Shown here in pieces: positions 22,248 through 54,729 of a stretch of 64,000 bases of DNA; position 1 is the first letter of the stretch, and the number at the start of each line of letters is the position of its first letter. Source of the stretch: Cadophora sp. MPI-SDFR-AT-0126 (lineage: Eukaryota > Ascomycota > Leotiomycetes > Helotiales > Ploettnerulaceae); assembly GCA_020747065.1 (NCBI GenBank), contig JAGMVK010000012.1, positions 1,860,001-1,924,000 on the forward strand, in the 5' to 3' direction. Position numbers and translations under genes: made by a program. Under the pieces are notes generated by a model. That model did not search any database. It was not told the origin of the DNA and was given only the letters and a program-made list of their open reading frames with translations.

Positions 22248-25200
22248 ATGAAACCGTGCAATCACAGCCACTGGCTTAGCCTGCACTCACATCACGGTGA
22301 AATCACCTTCACTCAGTCCGATCGGGCTGCCACACTCCTTCATAGTCTTCTTTATCTTGAATCTCAACGGCCTAGTCTATTTGTTCTTGTTGGAAATCGG
22401 TCCAAAGCGCGTGCGCTGAGAGAGTTGGTCTCGGCCAGTACCGGAAAACGGTCGGCTGGCAGACGAAGCTACGGTGAGATTCACCTTCACCTCGATCCAT
22501 CCGCTCCTTTCAGTGGCAGGCCGATTTTGTTCGCAGATGGTGATTTCCCAATCCAACAAAACATTAAGCCCTCCACGTCCGGGAAGTGTCACGAGGTTAC
22601 CCAGATACTTCTTCCAAAAACAAACCGTCTACCAAGCGAGACCTTACAGGCGGCTGCAGATAGCATCTATTTTCGGCTCTTGTTTCCTTTCACCGACGTC
22701 TTCTGCTTTTTTGCCCTCGACCTTGGGGGCCTACAGCCTATCGCTCGCAGGATTGCCGCCTGGTTAGACGGTGGCCACCCTCCGACCTTGCCTATTGTCG
22801 TGCCACCACAGATTATAATCGTGACGGAATCGTCAACGCCGGAGTTTCAAGAATCACAACTCTTGGAGCACTTCCTCCGATTACTCGCTCATGAGACGAG
22901 AACAGACACCTCAAAATATTTCGCGGCCATCCGCGTGGTAGCCCTGCTCCCAGATGGGCACATCTCGCCAACAGCCCGCCATAGAAAGCTGAAAGAATCG
23001 TTGATGATTGCGTCTGATCAGGTACGACTACAAAGACTTGAGACGGGTATGCTTTTCTCAGCGCAGCATTTCGCCGCTTTCTTGAGGCAAGCTTGCTCTT
23101 CCTTTGTAGAGGCTCTCAACGAGCCTTTTGATTTCATTAGGGCATCGCGCGTAGGCAACCCGCCGGCACTGGATCTCAAAGAGCATCTGACTAACCTCTT
23201 AACTAAAATCAACACCATTGACGAACTTAAAAACTTCGCTGTCCCTCTCATTGCTTCTAGCTTATTGCTGGACGGTTACCACCCCGACATGCATCGTGAG
23301 TTCACTGCCAGAAGGGTGAGTAGATCTAACGAGAATACAGTCTTCCGCCCTCGAGATGTGTTCCGATTGCTATACAAAGACGCTTGCATCCGAGCATGCA
23401 GGGACGGGATACACTTACAAGACCCAGCAATTCTGATCTTACCCTCGGGATCAATTAGGATGATCGAGGATAGTTTCTCGGAGCTTTTTGTGACGCTCAG
23501 CTCGCGACCAAGTAATAAAGCAGTAGATCTTCACCACCAGTTTTTTCTCGACTTGCACCACGACTGGAGGGCATTTCAATTGGATGGTACCTGCCTTACC
23601 TGCCTTCGCCGAACACCTCGGTACCGCCTACCCTGTGGGCACTGCATCTGTCTGAATTGCGTTCGCGATTTTGGGATACTCAATGAACATGACCCGTGGC
23701 TCTTGGAATTGGAGAGCTGCATCTTCTGTAACATCAGCACATCGGGCATGGTCATCAAGGATCTTCCCCCCACGGCTGGCCTTCGTCTCTTGACATTCGA
23801 TGGGGGTGGAGTGAGGGGTCTTGCTACTCTACAATACCTGCAGTGTCTTCAGGAAGAGATTGGCCTACCTTACCCAGTGCAAGAGAATTTCGATGTTGTT
23901 TTTGGCACAAGTATCGGCAAGCAATCTTCTACCCCCCGGGATTCGCAGCTAATCAGTTTCAGGTGGAATCATTGCGATAGGGCTATCGATATGCGGCTGG
24001 ACAATCGAGCAAGCCACAGAAAATCTCGAGCGCTACGCAGAATTAGCATTTCAACCTCGTTCTATATGGAACACCGACATCCCACTGGTCTCGCAGTTCT
24101 TACAAGTGATTGACTTCATAATTTCATACCTCGCAGACAGCCGCTACTCGGCAGACAACCTGGAAGCGGCCTTACGAGAAGCATTTGGTAGCAATCGGAG
24201 CCTGTTGGACTATTCGACTGCAACCAGAACCGGGACATGCGTCGGCGTACCGGTTACAACCATTCGCGACACGTCGATATGTGTCTTTACGAACTATAAC
24301 GGAGTTGGGACGAGGAGTCGCGATTGCGGTATGGCCCATGTTTGAGTTTTGTGTATCGACTGATAATAGATAGGTTACCATGTCTTCGGTCCAAGCGATG
24401 GCTCGTCGCGTGTCCCTTTGTGGGAGATGTAAGTTTCCATCGATCAGATATGAACTAGGCTGACATCAATACAGCGCCCGGTGTGGATCTGCCGCACCTT
24501 TGTAAGTATTTCCCCTCAACGAGGTGTCCTCGAAGCTGACCTACCAGTTATTTCAAACCAAAGCACATAACCGGACTGGGCACTTTCCAAGACGGTGGCT
24601 TGCGGGAGAATGATCCAGGAAATCTTGCCTTAGAAGAGGCGGCAGTTATACATCCGTCCATTGATGAGCCAAGTCTTGTGGTATCACTCGGAACAGGATC
24701 GTCTCGCCCCAGTGAGGTCCCACGCATGTCGCCGTCTCGCGGTATTCTACAGGATGGTTTTATCGCGAGATTACTGCGCGCATTTAAATTGTCTTTTGGT
24801 AGTATTCGTGGTCATAAATTCCGTAGCCGTCGACGCGAGGGCCGTAAGGAGCAATATTTTCGATTTGACATGGAGTTTGATGGACCGGAGCCTGCCTTAG
24901 ACGACACGACGAAGATGCAGGAACTGAAAGCGGCCGCTCGAGCTGCTATTCACGGATCTAAGGAGCTGAAACGACTTGCGCGTTGTGTTGTGGCGGAGTT
25001 GTTTGTTTTTGTGCTGGACCATGATCCGTCGAAGGAGAATGGAAAATATCTTTGCAAAGGGCGAATACTGTGTCGTCGGCGTGCTGACGACCCCGCATTC
25101 GATGTCCTGATGGAGCAGCTGTCCAAAAAGTCGATCAAATTTTTTGTCGAAGGTCATCCATTAGAAGGTTTGATCGACAATTCATGGTTGGATCCGAAGG

Positions 25201-25436: not shown

Positions 25437-26954
25437 GGGCCACGATGTGAATGCGACGTACGTATCTCGGATTCTGATCTCCGGTCGTCACCTTTGAAGT
25501 AAACAACAATTCTCGCTTAGCGTCCCCGCCAGACCATTGAGGTTCAGGGCTCCCCCTACCAACCTCCAACTTCAACTTTTTCGCCACTTCGTCAACTTCA
25601 GCTCTTCTTTAACCTCCATTCTACTTAGCCTCGCATTCTGTCATTGTTGACATTGCCAGCAATACCGACGACAGCTGACGACGCGTCGCAGATAGAAGGT
25701 GTTTGAAGATCGAGGAAGCAAGTTGCGAAGGTAGAGATCGCGATCAAGGGGCGCGCCATCTACATTTTAATCCCTCAATCACGACCTGACACCTTCGCAG
25801 GCTTCCAAAGCATTCCATAACGCACCTTTAACGCCGTTAAACTTACAACGCACGTCGTCGACGCTCTGGCCAAAGTATCTTTGGAGGAGGAATGACCTTT
25901 CATAGCACCCGGCGCAAAGCAGGGCATATGCTAAAACTTATAGACCTTTCGCAGGATTGACACGCTCTTCTACGAAACGCTACTACGACGGCTAAGGAGG
26001 AGGGGAAGGCAGTGGGGAAGCGGAAAACGGTTGAGAAGGAGAAGGTGGAGGAGAAGCCGTAGAATTCCGAGGAGCTGAGAAAGTCCGGCGGGGTGACATA
26101 ATTCGGCCCAAACGCTCAAAGCATCTCGTTGTCAAGACACGTAGTTACTTTCCCGGCTGCTGTCGAGGTCATCTTGGCATAAGAAGATTGAATTGAGGGA
26201 GTGAGATGTGGTGAGATGTGGATGTGTGTGAAGCAGCGAGACGGCGACCCAAGCGTGATAAGATGAATATAGTCTGACAAGTTGTGGAAGAAAGAAAGAA
26301 GAGGAGACGAAAGAGGAGGGAGTATGAGGTATTTATGTATCTCGCAAGGTGCTGGCATGTTCTATGACCATCGAGTATTAGTGCCAACTCTATTGGGTGC
26401 AGGTAAGGCGTGACTTTCTTAAACGAACTACTGATTGACCAGATTTACTCGTCATGACTTTGGCTTCAATAGGGGGTGGGTAGTCGCCAAGTCTTACAGA
26501 GTGGCTCTTTGAGAAGGCCTTGCTCATGGCGTTTGGCGGTCCAGGCGAATACGCAAGCCCTTGCTGACATAAGCCAAACAAGCAAGCACAACTGAAGGCA
26601 TTCTGACCTGTCAAATGTCACCTGACATGGCTGCAACTCTAACCTTTGCACTGTACTGGCGTTTTGAGCTCAATTCGAGATGCATTGAGAGGAGGGCGCA
26701 TATCGCGGGGCCACACCTATTTCTTTTGGTGAATTCATGTTATGGGAAGCAGCTTCGGCTAGCACTTGCCAATTGTACTGAAGAGATTCATTCCTCGTTT
26801 GAGGGATCAGTCATCTCGAGCATGTCTATCCTTGGGGCTGAAGAAGCTGGAAGCTGAAAGCTGAAAAGGAAACTAAAGCCTCCAGGAATCCATCCCCTAT
26901 TTAAATGAATATTTCAATTCAAATTTTTTTTCATCTTATTTCTTCATCTGTGTA
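25437..26954. other. Intergenic, no confident gene
   Basis: Short frames on both strands lack domains or splice signals. CT-rich and AG-rich stretches at 25,985-26,060 and 26,180-26,340 look promoter-like. A possible short minus-strand start at 26172 (MTSTAAGK) has no convincing continuation. The segment just before 26,953 is probably the original upstream region of HET gene 2, displaced by the TIR element. Confidence 0.4.
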
Positions 26955-27395
26955 ACGTCCCTCCCCGCGTGCCGAGAAACCCTCCGTGCCGAGAAAAAAG
27001 AGAAGTACTTAGACTTTACGCAATTCAAATTCCACACCAACTTATAAATCTATTAAAAGAAGTGATCAGCCGTATTATATAACTATTTATTAGCCATTTC
27101 ACCCTTTCTGGAGTAAATTTTATATTCGCATTATCGCCCTTTCGCCTGATTAAAGCGAGGCTTCCGTTTAAGCTTCATTTCGAGTTCTTTGCCACAGCCA
27201 TACTGGCAGTCTTATATTGTCCCTTACGCACCTTAAAAGATCTTATCTGAGCTTCAGATCGATTATTTTTAATCCAAGACCATAATAAGCTTTCTGGCTG
27301 CTGTGGCGCGCGAACAGCTGCAGGGCCGCCACGCGGTTCGGTACTTCTGATCGACGGAACTAATGATTCTCGGCTGGAAGGGACTCACCCCGCAC
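26955..27395 (+). repeat. Left terminal inverted repeat of the NLR element
   Basis: Matches the reverse complement of about 31235-31684 throughout, for example CCACACCAACTTATAA versus CCACACCAGCTTATAA and GGTACTTCTGATCGAC in both. The terminal part contains two direct copies of CGTGCCGAGAAA. Identity by eye is about three quarters; many differences are C/T or G/A transitions. Confidence 0.8.
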
Positions 27396-27716
27396 TTCCT
27401 AAAAGGCTTTAACTTACTTCTATGTTCAGTAAATGGTTACTGCAAGACATCTTACCATTTCATAGAGCAAGCATGAGATGGAAAACTAATTATATTGTCC
27501 TTGCAAGGCGTGACTTTTTTCTTACATGGACGATATTATTTGAAAGTCACCATAATTCCGTCAGTTTGTTCTACAAGATTCTAGAAGCAAGTAGTCATCA
27601 AAATGCTATAAAGTCTTAAGCTCCCCTAGGACCCTCTATGAAATAGAGATTAAAGAAAAAGAGGCATCATATTAAAAGCTTTATATACTATACATAGGCA
27701 AATACCGTCATACTTT

Positions 27717-30700
27717 TCATATTAGTAGGTTCAGCCCTTGTCGAATCTGAAGAAATGATAATCTCCCTGACGAATGCCCCAAAACCACAACCCTGCCGCA
27801 TACAGCTTCACAAGTAGGTCGATAATTAGTAGGTAGCCAGAGATACCTAGCAGTACCTTCTACTAGCCATTCACCAGATACGTGTAAGGTCGGAATATGT
27901 TTGCTGTCGGGAGAGAAGGCCAGAGACGTGACCCCGTTAGTATGACCCTCGAGCGTCTGGAGCGGGGCTCCTGTCGCAGCGTCCCAGAGCCGCACTGTCT
28001 TGTCGTAAGAGCCCGACACGACCTGCTTGCCGTCGGGAGAGAAGGCCACAGACGTGACCCAGCCAGAGTGTCCCTCGAGCGTCTGGAGCGGGGCTCCTGT
28101 CGCAGCGTCCCAGAGCCGCACTGTCTTGTCGTAAGACCCCGACACGACCTGCTTGCCGTCGGGAGAGAAGGCTACGGACGTGACTGCACTAGAATGGCCC
28201 TCGAGTGCTTGAAGCATCGCAGTCCAATGTGCGTCTACTCTAGGTTTTCTCTGGATCCAAGACGGAATATATCTGTCGAACGTTTCTCGAACAATGCTCT
28301 TCTCTGGGGCAAAGACAAGAGCCGAACAATATGCTTGAAGAGGCGCCTGTTCAACAATTGATCGGCTGGATACGGCAAACCGCCTTCCATCATGTATGAA
28401 TGCATGTAACTTCGGACTTTCATCGAACTTATTCATTTTAGCAGAGTATTCCCTGAGATCATCCTCAAAATCGTAATATAACTTACCTGAATCCAGTTCT
28501 CGAGCTTCTGTATCATCACGACACCATCTGGCAAGCTTTTCATTAAGCTGAGCGCCTCAAGCCAGAACATATAAGTCGTTTTTAAAAATCGATGAACGGA
28601 GCCACCGTCCATAAGATCAATGGTAATGTTTCCTCTATTACAGTCAAGTAGATGGTCAACCCAGTAAAGGCACGAGTATTGCGCTGCCGCAAGTGGATCT
28701 GGAACTGGCGGCTCAACCATCTCAATCGGGAACCCTGGCGCGCGCAATCCGTATATGTCGCGTCGAAGCGTTTTCGACATAATCTCGAGCGATTTTGAGA
28801 ACATTGTGTAGATTACATCTGCCTTTCCAGATGGAAATACTCTATCAAATGCCTTTTCGAGCAAGAAGTCCTTTGCCGACTGATGGATGAAATACGTGCG
28901 ATTATCTCGTACAGTGAGGAATGAGCCGCATTTATTGACAACCTTCACGACTTTCTCAAGATTGGAAGAGATTTGCTGAGGAAGAACAGAGAGGGCTCCT
29001 ACTTCGAGGAGGTGGAGTGGGCGGTACGCAAGCGTTATGGTAGATAGGACGAGACGGCAGAACTCAGGGTCTTTGCGCTGCAGCTGTTCAACTTGACGTA
29101 GCATCCGATCGTAGAGCGGTTCTAGCTCGGGCGGCATGTCCTGAAGCACATCGAGCACGTCCCAGCTCTCTACGGGCTCAAGCTCCTTTAAGACAAGAGC
29201 CGCCCAGAGAAATGTCCCATTGGCCTTAGCATATATTTGACCTCGAACTATCTCCTGTAGCTCGCTGTCATCCTCAATAAGTCGTAGTTTGGAAACCTTG
29301 AAATCGATAAATACCTGGACAGCACGAGAAACATGCTTTTCGTTGAGCTCAAGGCTAAGCCTCATCTGCGTATGATCAAGTCTCAGCCGCGCCTCAATGT
29401 TGGGTTCGTTGCGGCTTGACACAATCCATTTCACGCGAGTAGATGTTGAGGCAGTTCGATTTATGAGATCCAAAAGCTGGTCAAGATTTGCTTTGCATTC
29501 ATCGAGCGCATCGATGATCAAATAGATGCTCGTCAAGCTTGGGTCTTGCAGAATGCTAGTGAAGATTTCAGATAATGCAACCCAGGCGTTTGGATCTTCG
29601 AAAAGGGCCTTGCCAGCGTGGTCGTACTTTTTCCGCACATGCGAGATGAGCAATGGTTGCTGGTCGATGAGCAGGTAGATAAGACCGCGGAGCGTGGCTG
29701 ACGCATTATCAATGCGGTCATCGGTAGCCTGGCAGAAGAAGTACGACAATAGTGTGGTTGCCTCTTTGTCTCTCAGCTTCGTCGAAGGGCTCATTTCATC
29801 GAGGATGCCGCTAATAAGCATCGTCTTGCCTTTACCAGGGTCACCCTTGATCCAGAGCAGCCGACTCTGTGTATCGTCGCGCCATTGCTGGAAATCGGGA
29901 TGTTCGAGGATCCATTGGTAAGAGCCTCGCAGCAACCCGCCCTTCGTGTCTTCAATCCGCTTCTTGTCCTCCCGGGGATCTGTTATCCGCAGGTCTTGTA
30001 TACAACTTTGGCTTTCAGGGTCGAGTAGATTCTGCTCGTCTTCTTTCAAAAAGTGATTAGCAGATGGCCAAAGATGAAGCGATTTGTCGGGTGTTCACCT
30101 GTCAGCGATTTCTGGATCTTCTTCTTCAGCCGTCTGAACGCATTCTCTTTTCCTTCGCTATAGATGAGCGACATATTGACATTGAAAATGCCCAGTAGTG
30201 AGTATGCTTTGTCTTCCTGGCGAAAAGTCTCACGACTTGCTGCCCACGATAATCGCTCATCAACGCTGAAATCAGACAAAGGGCTCCCTCGAAGAGCCCT
30301 GGCTGGAATGCCTGTTACCTCCCCGATGTGTCGTTCTAAGGAGACCTTATTGCCTAGCAGCTCTCCTTCTTTGGAGAAGAAGTCGACCGATACCGGCGCA
30401 ATGAGCTCTTGCAGAGTCCAGCCTCGTCTGAACCATTCACTTTTTCGAAATATCGATACCCAGTCCTCGTTGGACCCATCAGCCGGATCGGGTCGAGGTC
30501 GCGAAACATCTGGCAGATGAACGTAGCACTTGGTCGCATCCCGGTACCAGCGAAACATCGAGTTGATGGCTTCCTGAAGCTCGACAGCATTGGATTTATC
30601 GATACAGCAAGTGTCCACCCAGAAGTATTGCAGGCCATCACGCCTTGCCTGCTCTCCGCAGAACTGTATCTTGCCGTAGCCAGCCTTACCTTTGCTCGTG

Positions 30701-30837
30701 CCGTTTGTCAGATCCCTGAAAGTGACCTCTTCTGCTCCCCATCTGTGCGATAGTATAGCATACTTCTTGGGTACATCGCCCTCAAAGAACTCGGTCAGGC
30801 TGAAGTCGCCGTCTTTATTGTACTGTAGCAGACGCAT
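27717..30837 (-). CDS. HET-NACHT-WD40 NOD-like receptor (HET-E/D/R type), three exons, 1001 aa
   Basis: Exons are 30837-30099, 30042-28487 and 28427-27717; introns of 56 nt (GTGAAC..GCTAATC..TGAAAG) and 59 nt (GTAAGT..AATAAG) join in phase. Start is at MRLLQYN, the usual beginning of this HET class. The HET domain (about 1-200) has YAILSHRWG, FWVDTCCIDK and RRGWTLQELIAP. A DPREDKKRIEDTKGGLL linker leads to NACHT with Walker A GDPGKGKT (313-320) and a LIIDALDEC Walker B. WD40 repeats start near residue 839: two almost identical 42-residue units plus a partial third, then the family's C-terminal segment (WLVEGTARYLWLPTNYRPTC). STAND receptors of this class recognise non-self ligands via the WD40 and signal death via HET. 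HET-E has about ten repeats, so this is a contracted but intact allele-like form. Confidence 0.93.
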
Positions 30838-31234
30838 TATTCGACTAGGTTCGAGAATCGTGAAGAGGAGGGTTTTCGGAAGTAGTTGAGCCGTCGAGAT
30901 AGCATAGATGCGAAGGTTGAAGACTTCATGTTGGGGTGAGGCTGGCGCACTCAGCTGGGCGGCAGACTCGCGGCAACAGCATCGTCGTGCATAACTGGCA
31001 GCGCGCAAGACCGGCCCAGTTGCTCAGGATCACCGTCGGAATGCTGGAAATCATGAGCACAATAGATTCTTGTTGCTAAGACGGAAGCTAGAGAAGTCTG
31101 GGAATTGAGTGATTAAAAAAGAGGTTCAGGATACAGTCTACCTACGATCATCCACCTCTTGTCTAATTCTAGCCTTAAGTCTCAGGCTGGAATTTATTAA
31201 GCAGGCAAACGGCGAAACTAGGGCGAAATACCAA

Positions 31235-31684
31235 AGCTTTGCGGGAGGGCGGGGGTCCGCCTAGCCGAGAATCATTAGTTTTGTCGATCAGAAGTACCAA
31301 ACCGCCTAGTGGCCCTGCCATTGTTTGCGCACCACAGCAGCCACAAAGCTTATCAGGGTCTTGGACTAAAGAATAATTAATCTAAAGCTCGAATAAGGAC
31401 TTTTAAGATGTGTAAGGGACAACAAGAGATTGCCAGTATAGCTGTGGCAGAAAGTTCAAACTAAAGCCGAACAGACGCTTCTCGCGAATCAGGCGAATAG
31501 AGTGACAATGCAAATAAATAAAATTCTTCGGAAGGGGTCAAATGAGTAATAAACAGCTGTGTCATGCTACTGATCTTTCACTTTCTTAGACTTATAAGCT
31601 GGTGTGGAGTTTGACATGCTCAAAGTCAAAGTACCTATATCTTTTCTCGGCACGCAGGGTTTCTCGGCACGTAGGGAGGGACGT
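31235..31684 (-). repeat. Right terminal inverted repeat of the NLR element
   Basis: Inverted counterpart of 26955-27395. Relative to the left copy, several GG pairs read AA and CG pairs read TG or CA on the aligned strand (GACGGAACT versus GACAAAACT), which fits RIP-type or age-related transitions. The inner boundary near 31,235 is approximate. Confidence 0.8.
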
Positions 31685-31743
31685 TATCTCGATTCTTTTG
31701 CTTTTCATCTCTCCGAGCTGATTATTCTGATCGCAATTTTGCT

Positions 31744-33654
31744 ATGTCAGCTTCATACTCCGAAGAGGAGAAACTGCCAGAAATGGCAGATCTTCCCGAT
31801 AGTTCTCGACAAGGTCTCTACGTATATCAATCGTTGGATAAATCAACTCGAAAAATTCGACTTCTCCAGCTTACGCGAAACGTTACTTTGAATGATATTG
31901 AATGCAAACTACCTGATTGGTCTCTCGACGAAGCGCCCGGCTACGACGCCATTTCCTATACCTGGGGTAATCCTGCCGAGACACATGGGATAATCGTGAA
32001 TGGGAAATGGCTCCCTACATCCGCCAACGTGTGGGAGATAGTACAAAAGCTAGCCCCACAAGAGAACACAGGCTGTGTATATATATGGATTGATTTCATC
32101 TGCATCAACCAAAAAAACAACGACGAGAAAAACTGGCAGGTTGATATGATGGGGAAAATATATGAAAGTGCGAAGCAAGTCGTGGTATTCCTCGGCGATT
32201 CACCAAATGGTGACGCGGATCTAGCAATCGAGCAGGTAGAGTATCTGAGGTCACAACTTGAAGAAAAGAAAGAAAATGTAGAGGATTTTCGGGCACAGGT
32301 CGACGGTCCTGAGTTTGGAAATGCCTCCCCGAAATGGGACGCATTCAACACTCTTGTCAATCACAAATTCTGGACAAGGGTTTGGATTGTTCAAGAAGTT
32401 GCCCTGGCACGAAAGCTTCGGATTGTATATGGCGGAAAGGAGCTATCGTGGGAGGGCTTCGCGACAGTGATGGAGGCGTTCAAGAACATTGACAATGATG
32501 GCCCGCTCGGGATTCCCAAGATGGTCGCTGGGCGACCAAAGGAAGGATTGCCCTTTCTTGGTGTGGCTAGGATCCTCTTAGTTGCAAAAATCAGGAAAAT
32601 GGTTCGTGATGCTGAGACAATTACTCTCCGCGACATGCTAGAACATTCGTCAAAATTCGCGGCCACTAATCCAAGGGATCATATATTTGCTCTCGAAGGC
32701 TTGGTTACCGATAAAGAAACAATTGACCCACATCTCAGACCAGATTATGGTAAGACAGTAGCCGATATCTTCAAGATCACCACTCGCCATTACCTCCAAC
32801 AAGAGAACGGGCTTTGGATTCTAGAACTCGCAGGCATCGGATACAAAAGAAATATAGGGGATCTTCCATCCTGGGTTGCCGACTTAAGCTGCGACCGAAG
32901 GATGGCCTCAGATTCAGAAACCACCGATCCGCTCGTATCAATGCTCGCGCTGCTCGGCATCACACCAGCCATTGCGACAGTACGGCTGCCCACCATCTCG
33001 TATCCTCCGGAGACGATATCCATGCATGGCATCATAGCCACCCAGATCTCAAGAGTCTCGACCCTCGCCTTAATGACGAATTCCCAGCCTGGACTTGGTT
33101 CCCTCCTCTCGCTGGGCGCCTTCCTCCAAATGCGCAGCATGGCCATGACCGTTTTCCCAATCCAGTACAACGCAACTGGCGAGGACTGCCGGGAAGCTTT
33201 CTGGCGGACTTTAGTCCAGACTACCGAGACGGACGAGTTTGCTGACATGTTGCGGTTATGCTATGCGGGGTTGGATGGCGGGCTCGCACTATTCCAGACT
33301 GTTACAGAGAGAATGCTCCTCAATCCGGAGGAGAGTGTGCAGGCTTCGATACCGGGCGTGCAGGATGATTTGGCGTCGTTGATGTTCTTGGCGACGAGAT
33401 TTTTTATGGCTGTGGGGGTGAGGAGTGGAGGAGAGCGGTTTGCTATCTTGAATGGGGGGTATATGGCGATGGTTCCGCCTGGGGCGAAGCAGGGGGATGT
33501 GTTGGTTTTGGTGAGGGGTGAGAAGCCCTTTTTATTTAGGAAGAGTTACATGCAGGGGAAATATCAGCTGGTAGGGAAATGTTATGTTCACGGTTTAACG
33601 GCGGCAAAGCTGGCGAATGAGGGGAAAAAAGGAGAGAGCATTGAAATATGTTGA
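31744..33654 (+). CDS. HET-domain protein 2 (HET-6/OR-like), 636 aa
   Basis: Single exon, ATG at 31744. The HET domain spans about residues 65-230: YDAISYTWGNP, YIWIDFICINQ, WQVDMMGKIYESAKQVVVFLG, FWTRVWIVQEVALARKL. A helical region with the RDHIFALEGL block and a C-terminal section (GVRSGGERFAILNGGYMAMVPPGAKQGDVLVLV) are typical of the HET-6 group. The TIR element of the NLR ends 60 bp upstream, so the native promoter was either replaced or lies beyond the element. Intact; expression may now depend on the element's right end. Confidence 0.92.
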   Translation: MSASYSEEEKLPEMADLPDSSRQGLYVYQSLDKSTRKIRLLQLTRNVTLNDIECKLPDWSLDEAPGYDAISYTWGNPAETHGIIVNGKWLPTSANVWEIVQKLAPQENTGCVYIWIDFICINQKNNDEKNWQVDMMGKIYESAKQVVVFLGDSPNGDADLAIEQVEYLRSQLEEKKENVEDFRAQVDGPEFGNASPKWDAFNTLVNHKFWTRVWIVQEVALARKLRIVYGGKELSWEGFATVMEAFKNIDNDGPLGIPKMVAGRPKEGLPFLGVARILLVAKIRKMVRDAETITLRDMLEHSSKFAATNPRDHIFALEGLVTDKETIDPHLRPDYGKTVADIFKITTRHYLQQENGLWILELAGIGYKRNIGDLPSWVADLSCDRRMASDSETTDPLVSMLALLGITPAIATVRLPTISYPPETISMHGIIATQISRVSTLALMTNSQPGLGSLLSLGAFLQMRSMAMTVFPIQYNATGEDCREAFWRTLVQTTETDEFADMLRLCYAGLDGGLALFQTVTERMLLNPEESVQASIPGVQDDLASLMFLATRFFMAVGVRSGGERFAILNGGYMAMVPPGAKQGDVLVLVRGEKPFLFRKSYMQGKYQLVGKCYVHGLTAAKLANEGKKGESIEIC

Positions 33655-40552: not shown

Positions 40553-43142
40553 ATGGTACAAGAACGAGGATTCGCTCCTAGGAACCAGCTCGCCTCCTCC
40601 TCTTACATCATCAAATCCTCAAGGAACATGCTACAATCTAGAGCTCGGGCTGAGGAGTCTAGACTCGACGTTGAACGGCGTCTAAAGTATCTAGGTGCAG
40701 CACGCGTCAGCCTCGATGTGCTCCGTCTCTATTGGGATGGCACAAACGTGCGAAGGGAGCCAAGCAGACAGCATGTGGAGATATTGGCGGAGTGCTTTCA
40801 CAAGGAAGGATGTCACCGCTTGAAACTGCACAATCATGTACCCGCGAAGATCTCCCAGGATTGTCTGGATTCGGCGTTACGTAATTCGAGTGTTTCAGCA
40901 CACCAATTGCTGAATGGTGTCCCAGAGCTCACCTTCCCGGACGATTACAAGCTTGATTATTTGCATGGACTACATAGAATTGAGGCTGCCCGAGAATTTC
41001 TCTCTGAGACAGACAAATGGTGGACAGTCGATCTCTACTTGTCAGGTATAGTCAAGCCTGATCAACAGATGTTCAAACTAACCCCCACGGGTAGACCTCG
41101 ACACTAACCTGGAAACTTGCCTCATTGAAGAATACTCAAACGAGGAGGAGCCTTCCGATGGTGAAGTGTATCGCAAAATACGTCAATACAAGGATAATTT
41201 CATCTTCAGGCAGCGATGGCGAGCTCGGCTGAAGAAGACCCGAGCAAGGGACATGACCACCTTGCTCCGGAACGAGGAATTGACGGAAGCCTTCGATAGC
41301 CTATTACCTATCTACGGTCTTTGGGATGGAATGATGTTGACTACAATTCACAAGATAACGCCAATGAAATGCCCCGAAGTAAGTAACAAGTGGATCTTAG
41401 CATACAAGCTAATTTTGCCTTAGCTAATCACGAATTACCTCGAACGTATAAAGGAATTCTACTCGGACTTGGTTGAGGGTGATGAGCATGCAATGCAGAA
41501 GATTGATCCGGCGACGGTGAAGGCCATAGAGCTGAGAGCGCCGCGAGCATCGACGAAGGATGCAAAGTTTCTCTACAGCGAGATACACGGGGGCAGGATA
41601 TTCAGTGCCTTCAGCGATCCTGAACGTGAAGAGATCTGGAGACGCCTACAGACGTTCGAGGGACTTGTGCCGTCCCTGTACACGTTTTTCCACGATATTC
41701 TGTATCTGGAGCTCCTTACCGACTCGGTGAGGTGGCTGACACGAATTCCAAAGAACAAAAGTCTCATCGAAGCTCTTCAAAAACGGTTCACCGGTGTGAA
41801 TCAGGAGAATGGCCTTATCAGAATCCAAAGAACAGAAGGCACGTTCGTTCATCGGGAAGGCAACCGCGCAGATCAGATCGATTATGGAATTCGACAGCTG
41901 TTCGCCTTCGCCATGCGCGAATACCCTTCCATGCCGCGGGAGCCTAAGGAGGAGGATCTGCTGCAACAGCCAAGGGCACACGCCGTCCCTTCCGTGTTGC
42001 ATTGCTTTGCTGATCTTGCAAGTGACTTGGGATTTGCATCCGACGAGATCACGGCTTTGAAGCAGCTAGGCACAGATGCTAGGCGAACATACCCGCGATC
42101 AAGGCCTATCCTAGTGACTTCTGGGCCTGGTGTTGCACTATCTGTCAGGTGTGGGAAGCCCCGGTGCCGGTCTTCTAAAACAGATCGCAACTTGTTGTTT
42201 ATCGATCACCTGCACGATACACGACAAGATCAAGGAGATGGCATAACGTCCTTCTTCGTTCGGAAATCTGTATACCTTGCATTCTTTGGCAGGCCGTCTA
42301 GGATGGGAACCCCAACCATGGACAATGATATGGAAGATACGGATAGTGTGCTGTCTTATTATCACAGGGAAGATAGAGGTCGATCCCAGGAGCCTTCTGG
42401 GGTAGATCAGACTAGAGGTCAATCGCAGCCCTCGAGTGCGCAAGAAGAGAGAAGGCAAGAACAACGCAGGCAAGAACAAGAGCTGCAGAGAAGGCTGGAG
42501 CAAGAGAGTGTGGACCAGGAGAGATTGGAGCGGGAGAGATTGGAGCGGGAGAGATTGGAGTGGGAGAGATTGGAGTGGGAGAGGTTGCAGCAGGAGTTGA
42601 AGCAGGAGATATTGAACAGGGAGAGACTGCAGCAAGAGGAATTAGAAAGGGAGAGACTAGAGCGGGAGAGACTAGAGCGGGAGAGACTAGAGCAGGAGAG
42701 GCGAGAACAACACAGACAAGAACAGCTCAGGCAAGAAGAAGAATTACAGAGGAGGTTAGAGGAGGAAAGGCTGGAGCGGGAAAGACGAGCACAGGATCAA
42801 CACGAGCAAGAGAAGGTCGAAATCCAATTCAAGGTCTGGGAGGGACATCACTGGAAAGTGGTGCCATCAATACATGCCCATCCAGAGGACTCATCCGAAG
42901 TTGAACGAATTGTTAAGAAGTATATAAGGAAGAAATTCCGGGCACTCAACACCAAGTTACAGATGCTTGCTCCACGAGATTGTTTCCAGGCGGTAATAGA
43001 TGATCGGACACATACGATATTGCTAGTCTCACAGGACAGTCTTCGTACTGATGAGATGGAAGAATCTGCTAAGAGACTGCATGACTATGCGTTGAGGACA
43101 GAAAATATATCGAGATTCTACCACGGAAAGAAGCGTCGTTAA
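40553..43142 (+). CDS. DUF3723 family protein, three exons, 831 aa
   Basis: Exons are 40553-41045, 41095-41378 and 41424-43142; introns of 49 nt (GTATAG..AACTAAC..GGGTAG) and 45 nt (GTAAGT..GCTAATT..CCTTAG) join exactly. The N-terminal YLGAARVSLDVLRLYWDG..REPSRQHVEILAECFHKEGCHRL..HVPAKI block is the hallmark I associate with DUF3723. The region around GKPRCRSSKTDRNLLFIDHLHD is further conserved-looking core. Residues about 610-725 are a Glu/Arg coiled coil built from LERER pentads, with 15-bp tandem DNA repeats underneath (about 42,515-42,720). Molecular function is unknown. DUF3723 genes are a recurring Starship accessory class. A broken relative lies at 57.8-58.5 kb. Confidence 0.82.
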
Positions 43143-52913: not shown

Positions 52914-54729
52914 ATGGATTGGACCCAAATATATGCAATAGTAGCGGCTGGAATCTTTTCCATGTTCGTTCTAGTCCATTTCCGCAAATATCTCAACCAA
53001 ATTGTCAATTACATGTTCCTGTTATCGAGGCATCTCACATACCCCAGGCTCGTCCATCGACATAGGTTTTTGGGCCCATGGAGTCCATCCGTTGTGATTA
53101 TACAGCTGATCTACATCGCAGCGAATACATTCTGCGCAACGTTTCCAGCGTCCACAGTTGCCGAGATTGGCCGCCGCGCGGGGACACTCGCAGCTATAAA
53201 CATGGTGCCTCTTTTCGCTGGGCCACACCTCGCATTTCTCGGAGATATCCTTGGTACTCCCTTAGGCAATATACACCTCATTCACCGTTCCGCAGGTATC
53301 ATGGCGTTCTCATTAAGCATTATCCATGCCCTGGTGGTAGCTAAATCCAAGATATCTCTACCCCTAGACGTTCCCCAGAATCTGTTTGCGGTTGTAGTAA
53401 GTTTTTCCATCTCGCTCTGAGCAGGGAGCTGACTATTTGCATGGAGGATCATCGCTTTGTCTTCTGATTTTGCTGACAATTCCGATTTTCCGGCGACTGT
53501 CTTACGAACTCTTCCTCCGAACACATCAAGTCCTCGCAACGGCCACTGTCTATTCCCTTTGGCGACATCTTCCTTCAAAAGAAGCATTTCCGCTAGTATA
53601 TGTCTACCTTTCAGCAGCGCTGTTTTTGCTATTGCTTCTCTTGCAGATGATTCTCATCGTACAGAAGAATGGCATCTTTCGGTACCACCTTTCTCGTGCT
53701 ACCATCACAGACTGTCATGGCGCAGTACACTTACGTATCCAACACCAAAAGGGACTCAAGATCGATAGTGGGCAATATATCAATCTGTGGATTCCTTGGA
53801 TGCCTTTTGTCAGTTTCTGGTCCTTCTTACAAACTCATCCGTTCATGGTAATCTCGTGGACACCAGGGAAGCAGGATACTATTGAGCTCTTCGTCAAACC
53901 CCGGCGGGGTTTCACGCGAAAGCTTTTGTATCATGCTGCGAATGGCCACCTCAGGAATCCCGTGGTGATGTTTAGTGGACCGCATGGTACAAGTATTGCT
54001 ATGGACGAATACGAAAGCGTTTTGATGGTAGCTAGCGGGTTCGGTATCGCGGCTCACTTGTCCAGCTTGAAAAAGCTCATCTATGGCTACAACGCTCGAC
54101 TGGGTCGTACGCGACGAATTCGTTTGGTCTGGCAACTACGAAACCAAGGTGAGACGTTAAGCCATATATCCAACCGACACTGACTCAAGCAGCGGACGGT
54201 ATCGGGGCTCAATCGTTTCTGAACAATGCTCTGGAAGAGGACAAATTTGACGATGGGCGTGTATGTAACCCTACCTCTCCAGCAGTAGATCTGGCTAATA
54301 TATGCCCTGGCCAGATCCTTCTCATTACGATCCATCTAGAGTCTAACGATACAGTGATCCCTTTTGGGAAGCGCGCGACTGTGTATCCAGGCTGTGCACC
54401 CCTATCCCGTATTTTTCAAGAAGAGGTATCAGGGGAGAACATAAAGAAACCCGAGAAGCAAATAGTTGAACGGCACACGAGCACAGTAGAGAGCTGGGAA
54501 TTAGACAAACTACGAGAATCACGGCTCATCGAGTCTGGGGAAACAAGGGACACTACAAGAGATGGCAAGATGCTAGTAATGGGTAAGCAGCCTTGGGTTT
54601 TTGGTAGTGTAAAGTTGACCAAATGAAGTATCTGGCAATGACGATATCAGAGATCAAATGCGAGCTCTGGTGCAAGGCTATATTCAAGCAGGTGTGAGCT
54701 TGGTGGAGCTGGATTACCAGCCCGAGTAA
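52914..54729 (+). CDS. Ferric-chelate reductase / NOX-type transmembrane oxidoreductase (FRE), five exons, about 547 aa
   Basis: Model exons: 52914-53396, 53425-54148, 54193-54260, 54315-54582 and 54629-54729. The last three introns (44, 54, 46 nt) are canonical and in phase. The first junction is uncertain: GTAAGT..GAGCAG gives only 28 nt; a 46-nt alternative (53401-53446) needs a weak GTTTTT donor. The start MDWTQIYAIVAAGIFSMF was preferred to an upstream in-frame ATG at 52698. It shows several TM helices, bis-heme histidines (NIHLIHRSAG, IIHAL; RTHQVLA, LWRHL), the FAD motif HPFMVISW and NADPH-binding FSGPHGTS and VASGFGIA. The C-terminus SLVELDYQPE matches the family. It moves electrons from NADPH to extracellular Fe(III) or Cu(II). 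FREs are a Starship accessory class. Confidence 0.85.

Follow-up and report, generated by a model that had tools for sequence, protein, structure and literature searches.

Gene-carrying non-autonomous DNA transposons, the Pack-TYPE elements among them, have terminal inverted repeats (TIRs) and a target site duplication around host-type genes and encode no transposase. Starships are elements with a DUF3435 recombinase and are far larger than the 4.7-kb unit described here. Fot1-type DDE_1 transposons belong to the pogo family (PMC7325037), and in Sclerotinia sclerotiorum all Tc1-Mariner families but one (Pogo) are described with a TA target and an ACGT terminus (PMC4188875). Fungal NOD-like receptors (NLRs) are immune-type receptors that detect foreign cells. 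For the HNWD receptors of Podospora anserina, which include het-d, het-e and het-r, the excerpts cited refer to the relic of a transposon next to one pseudogene and to no TIR unit (PMC1805685, PMC12222747), and one sesA-NACHT-WD NLR is reported in an excerpt on a Gaeumannomyces Starship element (PMC12134995). Here we analysed a 64,000-nucleotide stretch of Cadophora sp. MPI-SDFR-AT-0126 (contig JAGMVK010000012.1, positions 1,860,001 to 1,924,000; hereafter the window), which at its positions 26955-31684 contains a transposon-shaped unit of 4,730 bp with TA on both sides and one readable HET-NACHT-WD40 gene. All evidence comes from this one genome of 54 Mb. Our reading, to which we give a probability of about 80%, is that the unit is a copy of a dispersed non-autonomous TA-inserting DNA transposon family with long, diverged TIRs, and that the family most often encloses a HET-headed NLR.

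The two arms of the unit lie at 26955-27376 (plus strand, on the 3' side of the gene) and 31263-31684 (minus strand, on the 5' side, with the terminus 847 bp from the ATG) and align in inverted orientation over 427 bp with 78.5% identity (E 2e-94). The first-pass annotation of this DNA had described inverted, homologous ends of about 440 bp bounded by TA; inversion and homology hold, the length is about 422 bp instead of 440, and the alignment of the arms does stop at the flanking TA on each side (26953-26954 and 31685-31686, the presumed target duplication). The unit starts with TA followed by ACGTCCCTCCC and finishes with GGGAGGGACGT followed by TA, and each end has two subterminal 17-bp direct repeats, at 26963-26996 (plus strand, repeat family D8, putative transposase sites) and 31643-31676 (minus strand). 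The TA target and the ACGT terminus are those of Fot1-type Tc1/mariner elements and of the Sclerotinia Tc1-Mariner families, from which the unit differs in size, since the excerpt describes elements of 1.8-2.3 kb with TIRs of 36-70 bp (PMC4188875). Unlike Fot1-type transposons the unit carries an NLR in place of a transposase: Pfam gave no transposase domain in the three exon open reading frames (ORFs), and the remaining ORFs of at least 100 codons in the unit all overlap the NLR gene and add no further gene, in agreement with the earlier claim that a transposase is lacking. Rfam gave no match at gathering scores within the unit. Because no DDE_1 transposase is encoded, the unit is at most a non-autonomous Tc1/mariner derivative. 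With 4,730 bp and a 1001-aa gene it is no miniature inverted-repeat transposable element (MITE; under about 800 bp and non-coding). As in Pack-TYPE elements, TIRs and a TA duplication enclose host-type coding sequence without a transposase, but in contrast to their random captured fragments gene type, orientation and spacing are shared by many units here, and the ratio of nonsynonymous to synonymous substitution rates (dN/dS) is well below 1. Unlike Starships the unit has TIRs and no recombinase. It is similar to ToxhAT and Sanctuary, in which, according to the cited text, a gene is moved by a small DNA transposon within a Starship context, and unlike ToxhAT (14 kb, with the ToxA effector gene) its family targets TA and has NLR cargo (PMC6737239, PMC12506042). 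Among the literature matches listed (open-licence PMC text) there was no counterpart of a TIR-bounded NLR family. Gene-carrying non-autonomous TA-targeting elements are a known kind; in the family described here the usual gene is an NLR.

The NLR gene (27717-30837, minus strand) has three predicted exons at 30837-30099, 30042-28487 and 28427-27717, which contain the HET domain, the NACHT domain and the WD40 repeats, respectively. The two introns between them (56 nt, 30043-30098; 59 nt, 28428-28486) were called from splice motifs without RNA, and the joined frame is open throughout and gives 1001 aa. HET, NACHT/NPHP3_N and WD40 all score above the Pfam cut-offs and follow the HNWD domain order. 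A typical WD40 propeller has seven blades. Pfam detected only three WD40 stretches in this protein, and the underlying repeat array (27901-28205, minus strand) has a period of 126 bp, 2.4 copies and 90% matches. The first-pass annotation had called the NLR intact and complete, which is right for the reading frame but does not extend to the propeller. Domain order and near-identical WD40 repeats are as described in the excerpts on Podospora HNWD proteins (PMC1805685, PMC12222747), from which the gene of the unit differs in having only three repeats. The best database score was that of a protein of Rhexocercosporidium sp. MPI-PUGE-AT-0058, with 93% identity both across 96% of the NACHT query and across 249 HET residues, and further close named proteins come from Leptodontidium, Cadophora and Bisporella.

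The ends of the unit are repeated across the genome, as the first-pass annotation had suggested checking, and its condition for refutation, TIRs at this one place only, does not hold. With the left TIR as query 46 matches were found on 13 contigs, counting the query itself and its partner arm. A pattern search for the 26-base terminus that allowed 3 mismatches at most gave 161 matches, short MITE-like copies included, and none for the reversed control. We read 14 units, from E1 (the unit at 26955-31684) to E14; E1-E10 were selected by TIR similarity and E11-E14 were picked for a known internal HET match. The conserved outer part of the ends, about 75 bp, consists of the ACGT terminus and tandem 17-bp repeats. 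All 31 ends compared side by side, chosen mainly from similarity matches and including two with extrapolated start points, are flanked by TA, and ACGT is invariant across 22 aligned ends, apart from a decayed terminus in E5. Similarity between units often runs for 1-3 kb and, at intact ends, breaks off within about ten bases of the TA. From the listed matches we compiled at least 138 ends, 18 of which we entered manually on the basis of similarity or of a 13-base pattern. Pairing by nearness gave 31 inward-facing pairs 1.8-15.7 kb apart, E2 being kept as a pair despite its lost right end. The other NLR cargo that had been proposed for this type of end is indeed present, with a related HET match inside 18 of the 31 pairs (two being fragments) and any HET match inside 21.

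We made some further observations on the ends. MITE-like relatives of the NLR units, 246-248 bp in length, are inverted-repeat elements whose ends are TA followed by ACGTCCCTCCC-type sequence (for example C12:3383300-3383545). The end at C12:3178732 has an expanded array of at least four 17-mers. Two other ends are split at the same place between their 17-mers (about C12:3399134-3399250 and about C4:1939029-1939156) by inserts of roughly 115-130 bp with a similar start; the sequences of the inserts differ, and we rejected a single shared insertion.

The position of the HET gene relative to these ends is fixed. From 110 matches to the HET of the window we kept 84 related loci and dropped 26 (second fragments and weak matches); a re-check of the dropped matches added only a second fragment of an already counted gene. 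An inward-facing end within 1.6 kb upstream, on the 5' side, was found at 24 of these 84 loci versus 2 of 150 generic HET matches (the best 150 of 447 candidates; Fisher p 3e-10). Counted as ends there are 27 in this position, at distances of 647-1281 bp; 21 of them fall between 776 and 995 bp and 10 between 828 and 854 bp. The remaining three placements and orientations around HET loci gave 2, 1 and 1, and a permutation control with loci shifted by 10-100 kb (2000 trials) averaged 1.3 and reached 8 at most. The share of loci with a 5' end falls with identity to the HET of the window, from 17/32 at 60% or more to 5/20 at 52-59% and 2/32 below. The NLR cargo is recurrent with fixed orientation and spacing, the HET start lying roughly 0.8-1 kb inside one end, and this geometry together with the falling share indicates that gene and element share descent.

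Evidence for insertion comes from empty sites, which we searched in the same genome with the joined flanks of 13 units. Related sites were found for two of them, E10 and E6, both with other cargo (E6 keeps a HET fragment). For E10 (C23) there is one empty copy at C2:2100517-2100777, with 85% identity and a single TA, and for the 15.7-kb E6 (C20) there are three, on C19, C15 and C4, with 76-79% identity. The alignments cross the junction without a gap there, and therefore members of the family insert with precision, the site being TA in those empty copies that have retained it. E1 itself has probably moved in the same manner. The search for E11-E14 returned self matches only. The TA empty sites that the first-pass annotation had proposed to look for exist in the genome for E10 and, in one of three copies, for E6, and were not found in it for E1.

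NLR bodies are present in nine of the 14 units read, a share biased upward because E11-E14 were chosen for a known HET match; within E1-E10 it is seven of ten. E1, E2 and E9 are HET-NACHT-WD40 units, E3, E4, E11 and E13 are HET-NB-ARC-TPR units, and E7 and E8 contain decayed NLRs. A different HET gene is present in E12, and E14 carries a HET-WD40 gene. The cargo of E5 is an alpha/beta hydrolase beside a HET remnant, that of E6 a 15.7-kb stretch with NmrA-like, short-chain dehydrogenase and OrsD-type genes and a HET remnant, and that of E10 a MYND-finger ORF. The contents of E4, E7, E8, E9 and the WD40 part of E2 were assigned by DNA similarity to E1, E3 or one another, and the HET of E3, E11, E13 and E14 by a similarity search with the HET of the window. 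Some units are damaged: stops interrupt the HET frame in both E3 and E4, and the sequences of E7 and E8 are rich in AT and contain numerous TAG/TAA stops, as after repeat-induced point mutation. Some units also adjoin or contain other elements. The right TIR of E4 is split by a nested DDE_Tnp_1_7 element (C12:3404227-3406277), which we take to be of piggyBac type, and we therefore rejected the transposase inside E4 as the family's own. E2 lacks roughly its outer 115-125 bp beside E3; the missing piece is absent from the far side, and a simple nested insertion of E3 in the TIR of E2 is unsupported. The right flank of E5 (C6:220129 onward), from the TA on, resembles the TPR end of two NLR units, E8 and E11, so that E5 looks inserted in another NLR unit, yet its left flank does not continue that similarity.

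Comparison of the units revealed a modular organisation. E1 and E3 share a single 1.57-kb block that spans the TIR, the leader and most of HET, after which similarity ends and E1 continues with NACHT and E3 with NB-ARC. Conversely, E1 and E9 have 3.2 kb of gene in common, yet their TIRs are alike only in the outer 70 bp or so, and E6 and E8 have both end types in common and different bodies. In a tree of 25 ends the 5' and 3' ends are intermixed (8 changes versus a shuffled mean of 8.5), and well supported pairs unite, for example, the 3' end of E3 with the 5' end of E4 and the 3' end of E1 with the 5' end of E18 (at C4:1939182). End types are mixed between copies, and the simplest reading is an exchange of ends or an alternative pairing of ends by the transposase. 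Four between-copy comparisons of the HET and NACHT parts, one with dS near 1, gave dN/dS of 0.13-0.27, and therefore these genes have long been kept under constraint. Related HET loci without detected ends exist among the 84 and are possible parental copies of the cargo. A tentative extension, which we regard as somewhat less probable than its opposite, is that the NLR is a resident gene of the family and no incidental cargo. A constant head of TIR, promoter and HET death domain would then have been rejoined to varied nucleotide-binding and sensor bodies, and transposition with end exchange would be an engine of NLR repertoire growth.

The units would depend on an enzyme encoded elsewhere. DDE_1 transposons on C5 and C34 of the same genome have ends of TA followed by ACGTC and then tandem subterminal repeats, and the intact C34 copy encodes HTH_psq, HTH_Tnp_Tc5 and DDE_1. 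Among eight further DDE_1 loci inspected, C34 included, such ends were present at C34 only. Mobilisation in trans by a Fot1-type enzyme is most likely and the best assignment that the sequences suggest: a Fot1-type (DDE_1) Tc1/mariner transposase would recognise the conserved ends and move the units, and recombination or alternative end pairing may let bodies swap and other genes be picked up. Two of 128 DDE_1 matches, probably one gene, lie inside a 12.8-kb pair of ends that also holds an NLR unit. We considered this gene (C12:3214746-3215384) as an autonomous copy, but no matching ends that belong to it were detected and this reading is unsupported; the outer (minus-strand) end near it closes a stretch with another NB-ARC/TPR-like ORF, a domain assigned by eye. 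Thirteen DDE_1 loci (C7:1245039 and 12 more) have equal scores and open frames of 588-611 aa and are possibly a recently active Fot1-like family.

The first-pass proposal of an NLR carried by a Tc1/mariner-like element with long TIRs is supported by the dispersed ends, the recurrent HET cargo, TA with ACGT, the DDE_1 transposons with similar ends in the genome, and the empty sites of two members with other cargo. Several results weigh against it. Ten of the 31 inward pairs hold no HET match, and at 60 of the 84 related HET loci no end was detected on the 5' side. At least five listed ends lack TA (C12:3259407, CA; C12:3213530, AA; C12:3355022, GA; C33:305642, TT; C33:961657, CA), and most other listed ends are uninformative on this point because the search patterns began with TA. 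The empty copies of E6 differ at the site itself, with TA on C19, TG on C15 and TT on C4. For 11 of the 13 units, E1 included, the flanks gave only self or one-sided matches in the genome, where none of the units that carry an intact NLR had an empty site. When the ends were aligned jointly, the two TIRs of a unit were 66-80% identical to each other, and recent activity is therefore unsupported. None of the 128 DDE_1 matches lies in a private inward pair of NLR-type ends (at least 138 ends, 8 kb on each side), so that the transposase-bearing copy sought on the advice of the first-pass annotation did not appear. In the excerpt on Sclerotinia, the Tc1-Mariner TIRs are described without direct repeats and the Pogo family without ACGT (PMC4188875).

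The alternative that survives best is that the unit moved only as the passenger of a Starship, a DUF3435 tyrosine recombinase element, its TIR element being long dead. A largely open DUF3435 gene is located at C4:1942343-1943665, about 51 kb to the right of the unit and about 18 kb past the right edge of the window. The window also holds a patatin match just below the cut-off (22248-24113), a DUF3723 gene (40553-43142), a ferric reductase gene (53437-54183) and two further HET genes. An excerpt that counts DUF3723, ferric reductase and patatin-like genes among the common genes of Starships gives DUF3723, FRE and PLP as absent from the Gaeumannomyces Starships (PMC12134995). Of the 138 compiled ends, 50 are no more than 60 kb from one of 21 DUF3435 positions (drawn from 42 matches), in neighbourhoods that make up at most 3.7% of the genome, a proximity inflated by a cluster of ends on C12. 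A Starship around the unit is plausible on this circumstantial support. The empty sites and conserved ends, however, show independent TIR-type insertion of family members, and we find movement as a passenger alone unlikely; the Starship route and the TIR route are compatible. One neighbour deserves mention: a HET-domain gene of 636 aa (31744-33654, plus strand), not part of the unit, has its ATG 59 bp outside it, and the unit may affect the promoter of that gene.

Still less probable, in our judgement, is that the NLRs spread by segmental duplication in a repeat-rich region and that MITE-like elements with a TA target entered each flank separately, so that the pairs look like transposons but do not move as units. 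The ends are clustered in a way that would suit such a process: 57 of the 138 compiled ends are on C12 and 54 of these between 3.0 and 3.6 Mb, where C12:3040000-3550000 forms an NLR- and transposon-rich hotspot of about 0.5 Mb. The short elements of 246-248 bp with similar ends exist, in most units the 5' and 3' ends do not group as sisters in the tree, and some flanks share repeats (E5 with E8 and E9; the right flank of E5 with NLR TPR stretches). Independent flanking insertions do not account for E10 and the 15.7-kb E6, in each of which both ends entered one site, for the fixed orientation and narrow spacing between HET start and end on several contigs, or for the similarity from TIR to HET, which is one block that stops at the TA. 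A local inverted duplication around one NLR without any mobile element, which has nothing but the inverted arms themselves in its favour, we rejected as very improbable, since the arms are dispersed repeats with copies on 13 contigs, a terminus on 24, conserved ends and TA flanks.

From an evolutionary point of view, NLR repertoires in fungi are large and fast-changing, and how copies and combinations of domains arrive at further loci is largely an open question. A TA-targeting family with a HET-NLR as its usual gene would be a concrete route for the spread of NLRs and would explain how different receptor types come to have 5' modules in common. The termini are short and searchable and can be used for surveying other fungi. 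If the NLR is a resident of the transposon, the situation would be comparable to that of defence systems on bacterial mobile elements. Transposition may thus help to spread and reshuffle the immune-type receptor genes of fungi.

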